Of a stretch of DNA of 64,000 bases, positions 57,676 to 64,000 are shown piece by piece. This stretch comes from Alteromonas macleodii (lineage in GTDB: Bacteria > Pseudomonadota > Gammaproteobacteria > Enterobacterales > Alteromonadaceae). Made by a program: the position numbers and the translations under genes. Within the stretch, counting starts at the first letter, position 1; the number at the start of each line of letters is the position of its first letter. Below the pieces are notes generated by a model that made no database searches, was not told the DNA's origin, and worked only from the letters and a program-made list of their open reading frames with translations. The stretch spans positions 2,957,397 to 3,021,396 of the forward strand of contig NZ_LR812090.1 in assembly GCF_903772925.1 (NCBI RefSeq), given 5' to 3'.

Positions 57676-60675
57676 CTATCGCGCTTTAACCGAATCGGTT
57701 AGCACTGACGCATCGAAAGTCGATAGCAATGCTTGAATTGTATCGTCGGTTTTAATCACCGAGTGTGCATGCGCATGGCGCATGGCATGAATTTCTTGTT
57801 GTAACGCAAAAGGTGTAGATGCTGGTTCACCTAACGTGATATTTACTTCAACGCTTTCACCCAACCCATGATGGATTGCATCAACCAATTGCTTTTTCGC
57901 ACTGTCGTTTAATAAATGCGTCTGACTGTGGTCAATTTCAAGGGATACTTGATTGCCCGTTCGAGAAAATGATGCGTGCAGCACCAATTGTTTAAGTAAA
58001 CCAGCAACCGGCATTTGCTCTACCAGATTGCTCCATTCGTCAATTTGGCTAGCGTGAGTTAATTTACTTCCGTCATTTAAGTACGCTTTTAACTGACCGT
58101 CGTAGGTACTGCTCAGCGGCGTATCAAAATTTAGTGCATCCCGCGCAAACGACCGTTCTTCCGCATTTTCCATCTGCTCTGGAGCACTGTCGTAATTCGA
58201 GCTGCTATCAGAGGGCGCTTCAACATAGTCAGCACCTTCAAAAGGTTGAGGTGGTTGATTATCGTAATCAGTAGTCCAAGGTGGCATATCCTCAACAGGT
58301 GCTTCCAAGTATGCTTGCACCTCAGATTCGTCATTTGAAAAAGGCATATCCTCTTCAAATTCATCAAGAGCAAAATCATTTACGTCGTTTACACCAGATT
58401 GCGCTTTTACTGATTCGCCAGCATGCGCAGTGTCAGCTGACTCTGCGAGAGTGTTACCCTGAGGTGCGCCTTGTTGCAGAGAATTGTCGTCGTATTCATT
58501 GCTTTTATTTGTAGCGCTGTTAGCAAGCCCAGTGTTATTTCCTAAACGCTCAGAGTTGGTTTCAGATTCTAAGGAATTTACTTCACCACTCTTGATTTCG
58601 TTATCAGCACTAGCCTGCCCTGCACTATTTTCAGCATGGTCCGCAATTTCGTTTGTAGATTGCGCTGTATCTGAGGCTTTTGTTTTACTTCTGGTAAAGC
58701 GCGCTTGAATATCACTTGCACTTTCGCTCTTAGCATTTGCTGCGCTGGTACTTTTGGCCTCTGCGTCTTGTGCTTTTCTTTGCTTTAACTTTTGACGAAG
58801 TGCCAACATATCAGCCGTAGAAGTCAGCTGCTCTTCGGCGGTTAATGAAGACGCTTCGTTCTCGTGCGTCAACAACTCGCTGTTTTTATCAGAGCCTTCA
58901 GCATCATAAGAGCCTTCAGCGTTATGAGAGCCCTCAGCGTTATGAAAACCCTCAGCGCTTTGAAAGCCTTCAAAAGCAAAGGAGCCATCATCATCTGACG
59001 GAAGCGGCATATCGTCCATGTATGCATCTAGCGGAGGTCCATCGAAATGTTGCGCTGCTTCGTTATGAGGCTCTGCGGCAACGCTTTCTGCTTGTATCGC
59101 GGTGTTTTCTACTGGTACTTCTTCAGTAATAGGCGAAGCTGGTGCTTGCTTTACGGGTTCTTCACCATGAGCAGAATCACTCTCCAATGCTGTTGATCGA
59201 GTTGACGTTGTGCCCGACTCTACTTGAGGCAGCGCCGATTGAGTATCATTTTCACTCAACGCGCTTTCATCAACAGCTGCTTGTTCCTGCTCTTGCTGTG
59301 GTTCAAATGGAGACGTCGATTGAGGCTGTGCTTGCTGCTCTTCATCAATTTTCGATGTAGCAAGAGAATCTGGGGTAGAGGGCGCATTTTCTGACGACTG
59401 AGCAGAGGTAGATTCAACCGATAGATGTGAAGGCGTCTCCTCCTGCACTTTGGTTGCAGAAGTTTCGCTTAACTGCGCTTCCTCCTGCTTACCGACGTTT
59501 CCCGGGCCACCACTGGAAGAAGCATGATCTACAGGTAAACTATGCTCACTCCTCCCACTTTCAATCTCATTTGGTGTATTTTCAATGGGAATATTTGGCG
59601 CAAACGACATCATACGCATTAACGTCATTTCAAAAGCGCTTTTGCCATCTGCCGCAAAAGGTAAGTCTTTTCTGCCTTGAAGTGCAATTTGATAGAGTAG
59701 CTGCACTTGCTCTGCCGGAATAGTTTTGGCTAATTGAAATATCGCTTTGGCAGACGTGGTTTCTAACTTACATGCTTCTGGCACCCATTGCGTTAACGCT
59801 ATTTGGTGCAGTAGGCTAGCCAACTCGCTGTGTACGTTGTCATAATCTGGTGCTTGCTCTGCGATATCATTCACCAGCTGCAACACCTCAGCCGGGCTTT
59901 TGTTTACCACAGCGTGTACTACTTTAAGCAACTGGTTCTTGTCCATCAACCCAAGCATATCGGTTACCACCGATGCCAGAACTTGATTTCCGCCTTGCGC
60001 AATCGCTTGGTCCGTTAAACTTAGCGCATCACGCATACTGCCCTGAGCCGCTCTAGCTAAAAGCGCGAGTGCCTGTTGTTCATATGACAGCTGTTCATGC
60101 TCTAAAATATGCTTAAGCTGTCCAACAATCTGCTCCCGAGACATCGCTTTCAAATTGAACTGCAAGCAACGGGATAAAATGGTTATGGGAAGCTTCTGTG
60201 GATCAGTGGTCGCTAGTAAGAACTTGACGTGTGGAGGTGGCTCTTCTAACGTTTTCAACAGCGCATTAAAGCTGTGTTTTGAAAGCATGTGTACCTCATC
60301 AATAAGGTACACTTTATAGCGTCCGCGAGTAGGCTTGTATTGCACGTTATCAAGAAGTTCGCGAGTATCCTCGACTTTGGTTCTTGATGCTGCGTCAATC
60401 TCTAATAAATCAACGTAGTTGCCCTGCTCTATCTCTTTGCAGGTGTTACATTGACCGCAAGGGTTAGCCCCTTGCCCTTCTTCGCAGTTAAGGCTTTTTG
60501 AAAAAATACGCGCAATCGTGGTTTTGCCCACACCTCGCGTACCGGTAAAAAGGTATGCGTGGTGTAAACGGTCGTTATCTAAAGCGTTTGAAATGGCAGA
60601 GACGACATGTTCCTGACCTACAAGTTCACTGAACTTGCCTGGTCTCCACTTCCTTGCTAGTACCTGATAACTCAT
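57676..60675 (-). CDS. dnaX: DNA polymerase III subunit tau/gamma
   Basis: 999 residues, the clamp-loader ATPase. Residues 1-365 are the conserved AAA+ part: Walker A GTRGVGKT (45-52), zinc cysteines C64, C73, C76, C79, LIDEVHMLS, and sensor [17 protein letters not shown]. The C-terminal polymerase-binding domain (about 875-999) is present ([17 protein letters not shown] onward). The roughly 500 residues between are acidic and low-complexity with short repeats, making the protein far longer than E. coli tau (643). Whether a shorter gamma form is made by frameshift was not resolved. Confidence 0.95.
58891..58972 (-). repeat. 18-bp tandem repeats inside dnaX
   Basis: About four to five copies of an 18-bp unit, read as EGF/S-x-x-A hexapeptides ([28 protein letters not shown]). 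They lie in the disordered linker of tau, where copy number could vary without harm. Confidence 0.8.
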
Positions 60676-60716: not shown

Positions 60717-61253
60717 TTATTCGCCTTCAAATTCACAAATTGAATAACTCTCAATATCAAGCTGATTCAATTTTTGCTCGCCGCCTAAATCGGGAAGATT
60801 AATGATGAACCCTGCGTGGTTGATTTCGCCACCTAGAGAACGAATTAGCTTTGCAGATGCAGCTATAGTGCCGCCAGTTGCAAGTAGATCATCAATAAGA
60901 AGGACTTTATCGCCTGGCTCTATAGCATCTTTATGGATTTCCAACGTATCCATGCCGTATTCCAGTTCGTAGCTCTCACTTACTACTTCACGAGGAAGTT
61001 TGTTGGGTTTTCTTACTGGAACGAAACCAATGCCCATTTCGATGGCCAATGGCGCACCAAATAGGAATCCGCGCGCTTCAGTACCCGCAATTTTGGTAAA
61101 GCCCATACCTTGATACTTTTCTACAAGTAAAGAGATACAGCTACTGAATGCTTTGTGATCTTCTAAAACGCTGGTCACATCTCTAAATAAAATACCTGGC
61201 TTAGGATAGTCAGGTACGGTTTTCACTACTGATTTAATATATTCTGCAGTCAC
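60717..61253 (-). CDS. apt: Adenine phosphoribosyltransferase
   Basis: 178 residues, converts adenine and PRPP to AMP (purine salvage). Motifs: [28 protein letters not shown], the PRPP loop [16 protein letters not shown] and KPNKLPREV. Lies 41 bases before dnaX in the conserved apt-dnaX-ybaB order. Confidence 0.97.
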
Positions 61254-61275: not shown

Positions 61276-61398
61276 TTATAACCAGAAGGTGAACCAGCCG
61301 GCGATGATATGCATCAACGGGAACGCAATTAAAGTTACTAGCGAAGCTAGAAAGTACCACTTGTTATAGACTTCTTTGAAATCTGAATTGTTAGCCAT
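61276..61398 (-). CDS. Very small membrane protein, 40 residues
   Basis: Reads [20 protein letters not shown] and continues [20 protein letters not shown], then stop. One hydrophobic helix (about 16-38) with a short polar N-terminus, flanked by aromatic residues. AGGTAG lies 5 bases before the ATG at 61398. It is 22 bases upstream of apt in the same direction, so probably in the same transcript. The family is not recognised; small size and good ribosome site support a real protein. Confidence 0.68.
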
Positions 61399-61552: not shown

Positions 61553-62317
61553 CTAGCGTACAGGAAGAAATATCCCTTTTTGAAGCATATCCATGAGGGT
61601 TTGGTTCATGCCATTTACAAGCACATTCGAGGGTATTTGAGGAAGTTGTTGACATAAAGACTTGGATAATTGTTCTATTTTCATTCCCTGCTCACTTTGC
61701 TCCAGCGTGTTGACTAAAATAGCCGTTACCGGGTTAACATGAGCAAACTGTACGTTATAGTCTTGATCTCTATAGACTACATAGAACTGTTGTTCTTGAG
61801 CAGGTTGCTCAGGAATATAGTCCTCACCAATTAAATGAACTTCAAAGTGATAGGCAGCTAATGAAGCATACGGCGAAACTCTTATAGCATTAACTGTATG
61901 ATCTTGGGTGTAGAACTCAATATCTTCTTCGTTTTTTCTTATACTGACATCAAGCTCTAACCATTCATAATGAGCAAGTTCTGCGATAAAATCAGGCAAA
62001 TCCAACCCAAAAGACGGTGCTGTTGATAAGTACTCAACGAACTCTTTACTGATTTCTGCAAAATAAGGCGATCGGCATTCGTGCTCAATAAAAAACTGAC
62101 GCACAACACTCTCCCACCCTTTCTCCCCATACAATTTTAATACGATAGATTTTAGAACTGGGAAGCCTGTACTAACGAAGTTATCTATATTATTAAAAAA
62201 TAAAGACTGATAGATTTTCATTCGACGGGCGTTATCGCTGTCAGTGTCTCGATAAGTTTGTGGATCTTTTATCGCCTCGGCGAACGATTTTTGGGTGCGC
62301 TGAAATGATTGCGTCAT
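61553..62317 (-). CDS. bufC: DUF2063 MNIO-partner protein (BufC/HvfC type)
   Basis: 254 residues, soluble. The N-terminal DUF2063 helical domain (FQRTQKSFAEAIKDPQTYR ... RRMKIYQSLFFNNIDNFVSTGFPVLKSI) is the RiPP-recognition partner of DUF692 enzymes; databases often label it putative DNA-binding. The rest has a mixed fold with a C-terminal helical section (LCQQLPQIPSNVLVNGMNQ). Its ATG overlaps the bufB stop as ATGA, so the two are translated together. Role: bring the precursor peptide to BufB. No bufD or DoxX gene follows. Confidence 0.88.
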   Translation of the reverse strand: MTQSFQRTQKSFAEAIKDPQTYRDTDSDNARRMKIYQSLFFNNIDNFVSTGFPVLKSIVLKLYGEKGWESVVRQFFIEHECRSPYFAEISKEFVEYLSTAPSFGLDLPDFIAELAHYEWLELDVSIRKNEEDIEFYTQDHTVNAIRVSPYASLAAYHFEVHLIGEDYIPEQPAQEQQFYVVYRDQDYNVQFAHVNPVTAILVNTLEQSEQGMKIEQLSKSLCQQLPQIPSNVLVNGMNQTLMDMLQKGIFLPVR

Positions 62318-63165
62318 GCGACACTTCCATTTACGACTGATTCTCTAATAACTCCGCACTTTGTCTGAATCTGCTTAATCTTCCTTACTTCTGACAATAA
62401 CTCGTGCAAAGGAGGAATATTAAAGTCACGTTCTAACAAAGTGGGAAACACTCCATGAGTAAGGTAGGCGTGCTCTAATAAATCCCATACTGGCTCGATG
62501 ACATCTGCGCCGTGTGTATCAACCTTTAGATCCTCAGCTTCGTCATAGTGACCCGCAATATGCCCATAAACAATTTTTTCAGAAGGAAGGCCGTTGATAA
62601 ATGATTTTGCGTCATATTTGTGGTTGATGCTGTTCACGTACACGTTATTTACATCAAGAAGCATTTGGCATCCTGACTCTTTTAATATATTTGTAGTGAA
62701 TTCTAATTCATCCATTTCCTGACCGGGTGCGATGTAATAAGAGACATTCTCTAAAACCAGAGGCCGCTCAATAATATCTTGAACTTGAACAATGCGAGAT
62801 ACAACGTGCTTAATAGCTTGTTCAGTAAAAGGAATTGGCATTAGATCGTACATATGACCGTTACCAGAACAAAAGCTTAAGTGCTCACTGTACAATGCAA
62901 TATTATTAGCATCTAAAAATCGCTTAACGGTTTTTACGAACTCAACGTCTAGCTTGTCGCTACTTCCGATAGACAAAGATAAACCATGGGTGGTAAAAGA
63001 AGCTTGTGAAGATGCTTGCTGAAATTGATTTTGGTACTTTCCACCAAGTGGGATCCAGTTTTCAGGTGCAACTTCCCAGAAATCAACCTCCGATGGCAAC
63101 GTGGGTAATAGCTCTTTTAGCATTTCCCTACGAAAGCCTAAGCCAGCGCCATAGATGTCTTTCAT
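62314..63165 (-). CDS. bufB: DUF692 multinuclear non-haem iron oxidase (MNIO)
   Basis: 283 residues, TIM-barrel enzyme of the MNIO (DUF692) family, which uses two or three iron atoms to oxidise Cys side chains in RiPP precursors. Likely metal ligands: His in THGLSLS, Glu in SEHLSF, the NN in LLDVNNVYVN, His in YGHIAGHYD, DTHG and the final ERDFN. WEVAPENW and FCSGNGHMYDLMPIPF are family marks. Placed between the precursor and the partner protein, it is predicted to modify the EGKCG cysteines. Confidence 0.92.
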   Translation of the reverse strand: MKDIYGAGLGFRREMLKELLPTLPSEVDFWEVAPENWIPLGGKYQNQFQQASSQASFTTHGLSLSIGSSDKLDVEFVKTVKRFLDANNIALYSEHLSFCSGNGHMYDLMPIPFTEQAIKHVVSRIVQVQDIIERPLVLENVSYYIAPGQEMDELEFTTNILKESGCQMLLDVNNVYVNSINHKYDAKSFINGLPSEKIVYGHIAGHYDEAEDLKVDTHGADVIEPVWDLLEHAYLTHGVFPTLLERDFNIPPLHELLSEVRKIKQIQTKCGVIRESVVNGSVA

Positions 63166-63220
63166 ATTTCCCCCTTCTACCTCATGGGATTACATAATAT
63201 CAACTTACGTTATAAGACAG

Positions 63221-63246
63221 AAATGGCCATCATTCGACAGCCATTT
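63221..63246 (-). terminator. Hairpin between bufA and bufB
   Basis: AAATGGC (63221-63227) pairs with GCCATTT (63240-63246). It lies in the 150-base gap after the precursor gene and lacks a clear T run on the minus strand. It might partly end transcription so that more precursor than enzyme is made. Confidence 0.45.
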
Positions 63247-63315
63247 TTACTAAACGTAACTCGTGTAGCGTTTCATTACTTTATAATAAGCTACACAATG
63301 TTTTTTGAGTGGCAA

Positions 63316-63750
63316 TTACATGCTGCCGCATTTGCCTTCACCGCACTTGCCTTCTTTACCAGCTTTCTTGTCGCCGCCACATTTACCTTCGCCACACTTG
63401 CCTTCTTTTTCAGCTTTCTTGTCGCCGCCACATTTGCCTTCACCGCACTTGCCTTCTTTACCAGCTTTCTTGTCGCCGCCACATTTACCTTCGCCGCACT
63501 TGCCTTCTTTTTCAGCTTTCTTGTCGCCGCCGCATTTACCTTCGCCACACTTTCCTTCTTTTTCAGCTTTCTTCTCGCCGCCACATTTACCTTCACCACA
63601 CTTGCCTTCTGCAGCAAATTGGCTGTAGCCAGATTCTAGTGCCTGTATACCAAATGGATTAACGTCTGCTACTGCAACTGTTGACGCCAAAGAGCCAATT
63701 ACAACTGCACCCAAAGCTGTAGCTACTGATGATTTTTTAATTTGTTTCAT
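63316..63750 (-). CDS. bufA: Bufferin/HvfA-type RiPP precursor with EGKCG repeats
   Basis: 144 residues. Signal peptide MKQIKKSSVATALGAVVIGS to about VAVA (cleaved near residue 28), a leader-like DVNPFGIQALESGYSQFA, then from residue 48 six tandem units of the form EGKCGEGKCGGDKKAEK (last one ending EGKCGSM). Twelve EGKCG motifs and twelve cysteines, none elsewhere. This matches precursors modified by DUF692-DUF2063 pairs to bind copper in the periplasm or outside. ATG 63750 is chosen because GAGGG lies 7 bases before it; the frame is open 9 codons further. Confidence 0.92.
   Translation of the reverse strand: MKQIKKSSVATALGAVVIGSLASTVAVADVNPFGIQALESGYSQFAAEGKCGEGKCGGEKKAEKEGKCGEGKCGGDKKAEKEGKCGEGKCGGDKKAGKEGKCGEGKCGGDKKAEKEGKCGEGKCGGDKKAGKEGKCGEGKCGSM
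63319..63609 (-). repeat. 51-bp tandem repeats encoding the EGKCG units
   Basis: Five full 51-bp units and a partial sixth. Units 2 and 4 end KKAEK, and units 3 and 5 end KKAGK, so there is a second-order period of 102 bp, which points to duplication in pairs. Confidence 0.88.
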
Positions 63751-63948
63751 TGATGTACCCTCAATAATATTAGTCATGTTTGACGTACAGTAAGCACGTG
63801 TACTTTAAAAGACCTTATGGGCTTAAAGGTTATTTCACAAAAAATTAATTTTTTACAATTATTTCTTATCTAATTGATATTACTGATTTTTACATAAGTT
63901 TAAATGCACATTAAAGCTTCAATAAGTAACAAGTTTTGGGGTCAGAGT
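63751..63948. other. Promoter region of the buf operon
   Basis: About 200 bases between bufA and the insertion sequence. It is AT-rich from 63830 to 63930. A short inverted GTAC pair (63784-63787 and 63799-63802) is the only symmetry noted. No sigma-factor or metal-regulator site was identified. Confidence 0.5.
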
Positions 63949-64000
63949 CTGAGGTATCCCCACAAATAATGTAACGATATCAGTAAGATAAAAAAGACAG
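63949..64000 (+). mobile_element. Left end of a second IS10-like copy (cut by window)
   Basis: 52 bases identical to 31398-31449, the left end of the complete element. It is preceded by GGTCAGAGT (63940-63948), the reverse complement of the 9-bp target at the his site. The transposase would lie beyond the window. Confidence 0.93.

Follow-up and report, generated by a model that had tools for sequence, protein, structure and literature searches.

A window of 64,000 nucleotides from the Alteromonas macleodii genome (NCBI RefSeq assembly GCF_903772925.1, contig NZ_LR812090.1, positions 2,957,397 to 3,021,396) carries on its minus strand (63750-61553) a three-gene operon in the order precursor, enzyme and partner. 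The first gene, hvfA (63316..63750), encodes a precursor of 144 residues with twelve EGKCG motifs in six 17-residue repeats. It is followed by hvfB (62314..63165), encoding a predicted MNIO (DUF692, PF05114) peptide-modifying enzyme of 283 residues, and hvfC (61553..62317), encoding a 254-residue protein with a DUF2063 and a C-terminal RRE-type domain. The last two genes overlap by ATGA at 62314-62317. A first-pass annotation of the same DNA had described the twelve-motif precursor, the enzyme and its partner in this order along with the overlap, and its coordinates, strand and motif count all hold. The operon is an Alteromonas-type member of an already known operon family, whose products are chemically modified, cysteine-rich secreted peptides that bind copper. 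What is newer is a promoter-like element in common with relatives, a hairpin behind hvfA and the existence of relatives that have the precursor gene but not the enzymes.

Profile searches confirm the identities that had been proposed for the enzyme and its partner. HvfB matches PF05114 over nearly its full length (338 bits, 3.5e-101), while HvfC matches both PF09836 (DUF2063; 1.1e-21) and NGO1945_C (PF22106; 4.1e-21). Among the NCBIfam models, HvfB scores 429.4 bits against the HvfB model NF003818 (cut-off 360), HvfC 263.3 bits against the HvfC model NF050145 (cut-off 142), and HvfA 135.2 bits against the EGKCG-repeat model NF050137 (cut-off 19.5). HvfB falls below the cut-offs of the BufB model NF050167 (259.5 bits; cut-off 310) and of the methanobactin MbnB-group model TIGR04159 (37.8 bits; cut-off 325). 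As the HvfB, HvfC and EGKCG-repeat models are all above cut-off and BufB is below, the operon is by these profiles of the hvfABC ("oxazolin/captophorin") type and not a classical bufferin operon. The first-pass label, bufABC/hvfABC-type, is corrected in this respect: the enzyme is of the HvfB and not of the BufB type. Among solved structures, HvfB is closest in sequence to 3bww (7.2e-69) and HvfC to 3dee (NGO1945; 1.3e-05), and both structures have been assigned to gene clusters of this sort (PMC12668002). An alignment of 81 HvfB sequences (the window and the 80 related loci described below) shows 29 His, Asp, Glu, Asn or Cys positions conserved in 79 or more of them, including H60, H95, E139, D171, H202, D216, H218 and E245. 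In the Haemophilus HvfB, N175, D242 and H244 are predicted to coordinate the third iron, and changing them is reported to abolish activity (PMC13419390). D216 and H218 of the window enzyme are spaced like D242 and H244 and may correspond to them.

All 12 Cys residues of HvfA lie inside one of the 12 exact EGKCG motifs, which start at residues 48, 53, 65, 70, 82, 87, 99, 104, 116, 121, 133 and 138. The predicted core (residues 48-144; 63319..63609, minus strand) is built from the unit EGKCGEGKCGG(E/D)KKA(E/G)K, 17 residues repeated six times with the final unit short; in the DNA the repeat has a period of 51 nt, and its copies share 87-93% identity with the reference copy. The N-terminus, read by eye and not with a predictor, consists of MKQIKK, a hydrophobic stretch and AVA, with likely cleavage between AVAVA and DVNPFG. 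Residues 1-28 (63667..63750, minus strand) are thus a putative Sec-type signal peptide, and the precursors of relatives have similar N-termini with NPF...SGY or a like sequence. The signal peptide is probably also the leader recognized by HvfC; the Haemophilus HvfA is reported to be poorly modified without its signal peptide (PMC13419390). An alternative in-frame ATG for hvfA lies at 63777, 27 nt upstream.

The same architecture recurs in related bacteria. Scanning named genomes with HvfB gave 242 confirmed relatives. The best 80 were kept, so the locus counts given here favor close relatives; those ranked highest are from Alteromonas, with 86-92% identity. hvfC directly follows hvfB in 79 of the 80 loci, and in the remaining one the contig ends. 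An EGKCG-type precursor was detected in 71 loci; in eight of the other nine the contig extends no more than 315 bases ahead of hvfB. The order hvfA-hvfB-hvfC is therefore a recurrent arrangement and not a product of chance. The ninth locus (L093, Neiella holothuriorum) has hvfBC and 3.9 kb of upstream sequence with no EGKCG-type precursor by pattern, and perhaps encodes another precursor type. Across 118 sampled genomes of the same family, HvfB is above cut-off in 57 and an EGKCG-repeat protein is encoded in 89; three of the four same-genus genomes listed have both.

Neither the length of the precursor nor the lack of a neighboring DoxX gene sets the window operon apart. The 71 precursors of relatives have a median of 12 EGKCG motifs (range 4-18), and 43 of them have at least 12 KCG motifs. 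A DoxX gene, frequent but not obligatory in such clusters, was detected in 2 of the 80 loci and in none of the other 78. The profile used for this count came from two sequences of the window's genome together with two hits, and some loci are short, so DoxX genes could have been missed. DoxX was likewise not found among the neighboring frames examined on both sides of the window operon, genes within an adjoining 100-N assembly gap not being visible; two DoxX genes are present elsewhere in the same genome. Given the median of 12 motifs and the 78 loci with no DoxX detected, both features are unremarkable: the earlier view that the precursor has more motifs than is typical falls, and the absence of a DoxX gene beside the operon stands as an observation but loses its unusual status. 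This agrees with the literature, where the core genes of such clusters are reported to occur in various combinations (PMC12452194), a figure legend for Microbulbifer gives a cluster of mmrA-C only (PMC12538549), and EGKCG repeats of this sort are described with up to 58 Cys.

Alignment of the DNA upstream of hvfA in Alteromonas relatives revealed a conserved TGAAAT ... GGTCT. In the window this promoter-like element, TGAAAT-N17-GGTCT, is at 63810..63837 on the minus strand, with 60 nt from its 3' end to the hvfA ATG. A looser pattern, [TG]GAA[AC][TC]-N15-18-[GC]GTCT, was sought up to 250 bases upstream of hvfA in the 71 relatives; it is found in 49 of them, counts that include close relatives and hence loci that are not all independent, and in none on the reverse strand. 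Two hundred mononucleotide shuffles gave a mean of 0.095 and a maximum of 1. All but one of the 49 matches read TGAAAT ... GGTCT, the other (L118) having TGAAAC. When 15 to 18 bases were permitted between exact TGAAAT and GGTCT blocks before hvfB, the spacer was 17 in 51 of 52 matches. Genera with the element include Alteromonas, Aliiglaciecola, Paraglaciecola, Pseudoalteromonas, Shewanella, Bowmanella, Catenovulum and Algicola, among others. The two blocks, their fixed spacing and the GTC in the second suggest a promoter for an extracytoplasmic function (ECF) sigma factor. A search for sigma-70 promoters found 5 with 7.0 expected.

ECF control has been reported for other MNIO-DUF2063 clusters, by RpoE2 in Haemophilus (PMC7907618), sigma E in Neisseria (PMC2893595) and sigma F in Caulobacter (PMC3511200). 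The published ECF sites of such clusters, GTMAGBWTT / CGTCTAAH with 12-13 nt between and GTAACC-N16-CGAA, differ from the window element. TGAAAT-N17-GGTCT is not described in those parts of the literature that a search on the enzyme family and ECF terms covered, a search that was not aimed at the element itself and took in no supplements.

The exact pattern TGAAATN16-18GGTCTT occurs at 10 sites in the window's own genome, compared with 2 for the reversed pattern used as a control, and at 9, 5 and 3 sites in the same-genus genomes G024, G068 and G100 (control 2, 2 and 3). The hvf locus is among the sites in G068. Since the pattern is only weakly specific, no regulon was drawn from it. Three of the 10 sites in the window's genome fall within same-strand open frames. 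One of the rest lies 31 nt before the 153-residue hvfA frame, and others lie 29 nt before a response-regulator-like and 158 nt before a radical-SAM-like frame, both named from their translations with no family search. A further site (L149, G000:C1:3957597-3957625) is 31 nt before a frame that resembles a secreted metallo-beta-lactamase, again by translation and not by family search, and has a near-identical counterpart (L165) in G024. Eighteen Sigma70_r4_2 matches were listed in this genome, some of them response-regulator-like instead of sigma factors. The presumed rpoE gene (L170) carries a site of the sigma-E kind instead, GAACTT / GTC; thus the hvf element is likely read by a different ECF factor or is a variant site. 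One of the 18 matches, L171, has a site with one mismatch, but this lies inside its own open frame, a few bases before a later possible ATG, and is at about chance level.

Between hvfA and hvfB is a hairpin of 11 pairs with a loop of 4 (63246-63221, minus strand). By itself this one terminator-like site means little, as 1.9 would be expected by chance. The comparison across loci is more telling. The comparison took in 54 spacers between hvfA and hvfB, those of the window and of 53 of the 71 loci; the other 18 loci were omitted because the spacer was under 40 or over 400 bases, overlapped or contained N. The best stem has a mean of 9.9 pairs (2.2 in mononucleotide shuffles), and 39 of the 54 spacers have a stem of 9 pairs or more, compared with 3% of shuffles. 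The stem sequences vary from group to group, and one spacer (L100) has no stem. The hairpin is probably an attenuator or partial terminator that would yield more precursor than enzyme.

Downstream of the operon and outside it, an apt-like phosphoribosyltransferase gene (60717..61253, minus strand; PF00156 and translation) marks a conserved locus, as apt-type neighbors are similar in the relatives whose surroundings were listed. The next gene after it is dnaX-like (57676-60675), named from its translation with no family search. Between hvfC and apt, a 40-residue open frame (61276-61398, minus strand) has, by eye, a single hydrophobic stretch. On the other side, the 100-N assembly gap begins directly after window position 64000 (G000:C1:3021397 onward), 250 bases upstream of hvfA. 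Given that 5S or 23S rRNA is found about 1 to 5.5 kb upstream of hvfA in three relatives (L044, L041 and L120), the gap is probably an rRNA operon. The sequence beyond the gap resembles an rRNA leader.

Some of the sampled family genomes keep a precursor-like gene without the enzymes. Twenty of the 118 (L123-L142, from 10 genera) encode an EGKCG-repeat protein, while six-frame searches with the HvfB model, PF05114 and PF09836 gave no match in them; for 17 of these 20 genomes completeness is at least 90% and contamination no more than 5%. Buf_EGKCG genes without an MNIO are reported in 67 of 2583 complete genomes and termed rare (PMC12452194, Table 3). The phenomenon is thus already known but is more frequent here (20 of the 89 genomes with an EGKCG protein) and partly syntenic. 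In 11 of the 20 an apt homologue follows the orphan gene on the same strand at a distance of up to about 2.2 kb. A response-regulator-like gene often stands between the two, and eight of these 11 loci also list a dnaX-like gene; the neighbors were identified by eye, using their first 70 residues. The locus beside apt is the one that holds hvfABC in the window. The promoter pattern was found at eight of the 20 orphan genes. All 20 orphan proteins contain KCG repeats behind a Sec-like N-terminus with an NPF motif, but their repeat differs, being mostly KCGEGKCGEG or KCGEGKCGE plus a basic linker, and for this reason they may be a separate subgroup. They may also work unmodified.

The best explanation of the gene content, family membership, conservation, promoter-like element and hairpin observed at the locus is an Alteromonas hvfABC operon for a modified, Cu(I)-binding periplasmic peptide, to which we assign a probability of about 0.88. 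Under this scenario, transcription would probably start at the ECF-type promoter TGAAAT-N17-GGTCT and the hairpin after hvfA would probably keep the enzymes below the level of their substrate. HvfA would be made with a Sec signal peptide, and the RRE domain of HvfC would bind the leader and present the core to the iron enzyme HvfB. By analogy with the family, HvfB would then oxidize the EGKCG Cys residues to 5-thiooxazoles, with 4 H lost per Cys at up to 12 sites. The modified peptide would be exported to the periplasm, where its many Cu(I) sites would buffer copper or envelope oxidative stress. For fontiphorin, a loss of 4 H per repeat, 5-thiooxazole groups and copper binding are reported, and 5-thiooxazole is also given for oxazolin and gonophorin (PMC12668002). 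Oxazolin has six 5-thiooxazoles, with five of the six sites formed in one in vitro assay (PMC13419390). Its groups, formerly taken to be oxazolone-thioamides, have been reassigned as 5-thiooxazoles (PMC12668002, PMC13419390). The first-pass annotation was correct in expecting copper-binding heterocycles derived from Cys (PMC12668002, PMC12452194); of the two group types that it offered, oxazolone-thioamide and thiooxazole-type, the former has given way to 5-thiooxazole.

Several observations weigh against this interpretation or parts of it. HvfA scores 64 bits against the narrower HvfA equivalog model NF050188, below its cut-off of 95, and so is by sequence a member of the EGKCG-repeat family but not an HvfA equivalog by that model. 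AlphaFold2 with 21 sequences gave no confident structure for HvfA (mean predicted local distance difference test score 38.6), and the published beta-helix model was thus not reproduced. One same-genus genome (G100) has neither the HvfB enzyme nor an EGKCG protein. The looser promoter pattern was not found in 22 of the 71 relatives, including one (L042) that shows the element in the alignment and was missed through a wrong start, and the hvf locus is not among the exact-pattern sites of G024. Among the 18 Sigma70_r4_2 matches in this genome there is no ECF gene that could be linked to the element. Microbulbifer MmrA-C are reported as undetected with added copper (PMC12538549), and copper induction of the window operon is uncertain. 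Finally, the 20 genomes with no MNIO or DUF2063 match suggest that modification is not needed for every EGKCG protein.

These orphan genes bear most directly on the idea that HvfA acts mainly unmodified, as a metallothionein-like periplasmic thiolate protein whose modification by HvfBC is partial or optional. The Sec-type EGKCG proteins of 20 of the 118 family genomes without PF05114 or PF09836, the 11 of them that adjoin apt as in the window, and a hairpin that could leave HvfBC below HvfA all fit it. The adjacency of enzyme and partner in 79 of 80 loci and the high conservation of the enzyme argue otherwise, as do the different repeat of the orphan proteins, perhaps a separate subgroup, and published co-expression that led to full or nearly full modification of the HvfA and FonA peptides (PMC13419390, PMC12668002), which makes this idea quite improbable. 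A related proposal of ours, doubtful though somewhat less so, is that the EGKCG protein is itself the metal buffer, with the HvfBC thiooxazole as an addition that was lost from some lineages or never arose in them. On this view the precursor gene stays by apt, at the locus that holds hvfABC in Alteromonas, in genomes with no MNIO or DUF2063 match; where the enzymes are present, the hairpin would hold them below the precursor, and an ECF-type promoter not described before would drive the unit. If so, the native periplasmic pool would be a mix of thiolate and thiooxazole forms. It is possible, if still rather unlikely, that the operon serves chiefly in a response to oxidative stress (hypochlorite or peroxide) or handles a metal other than copper, with copper binding secondary. 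A Haemophilus DoxX cluster, which its listed domains mark as very probably hvf, is induced by hypochlorite via RpoE2 (PMC7907618), sigma E controls the neisserial cluster (PMC2893595), and the window operon carries an ECF-like element. Products of this motif class are nevertheless reported to bind Cu (PMC12668002, PMC13419390), and the two roles are compatible. A classical bufferin operon (Buf1/DUF2282 or Buf2) would have the MNIO-DUF2063 pair and the Sec-type N-terminus in common with the locus. This assignment was rejected and is scarcely credible, given an enzyme under the BufB cut-off and a precursor with no Pfam match at E up to 1, DUF2282 (Buf1) included.

The Cu(I)-binding peptide interpretation adds Alteromonas, a genus common in the sea, to a class of copper-binding peptides that was described only recently; among these relatives a long precursor without a neighboring DoxX gene is the normal form. 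If the promoter element is real, it indicates the kind of stress response in which to seek the product, a useful hint because the product of a marine relative went undetected with copper. A natural test of whether such repeats work without modification is provided by the orphan EGKCG proteins.

Among known systems, the window operon is like hvfABC(X) of Haemophilus influenzae in its EGKCG-repeat precursor with a putative Sec signal peptide, HvfB-family MNIO and HvfC-family DUF2063/RRE partner. The Haemophilus HvfA, however, is described with three AEGKCGEGKCG units and 6 Cys, compared with 12 Cys in the window HvfA, and its operon with a DoxX-like hvfX (PMC13419390), whereas no DoxX gene was found beside the window operon. 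The fonABC cluster of Fontimonas, whose product fontiphorin belongs to the proposed class of captophorins, shares the EGKCG repeats and the MNIO-PME1 pair; FonA has seven sites (PMC12668002) where the window HvfA has twelve, and the 5-thiooxazole shown for fontiphorin is for the window protein a prediction. The mmrABC cluster of marine Microbulbifer (bulbicupramide) is likewise a three-gene cluster of marine gammaproteobacteria with EGKCG in two-Cys cassettes, although its precursors are given five to eight Cys (PMC12538549) and not twelve. Bufferins Buf1 and Buf2 (bufABC) also have an MNIO, a DUF2063 partner and a Sec signal peptide (putative in the window HvfA) but differ in their precursor family and in the enzyme, that of the window being under the BufB cut-off. 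The closest likeness is to the Buf_EGKCG/oxazolin type 1 precursors with 17-residue repeats (PMC12452194), from which, as they are described there, no difference in the window protein was found.

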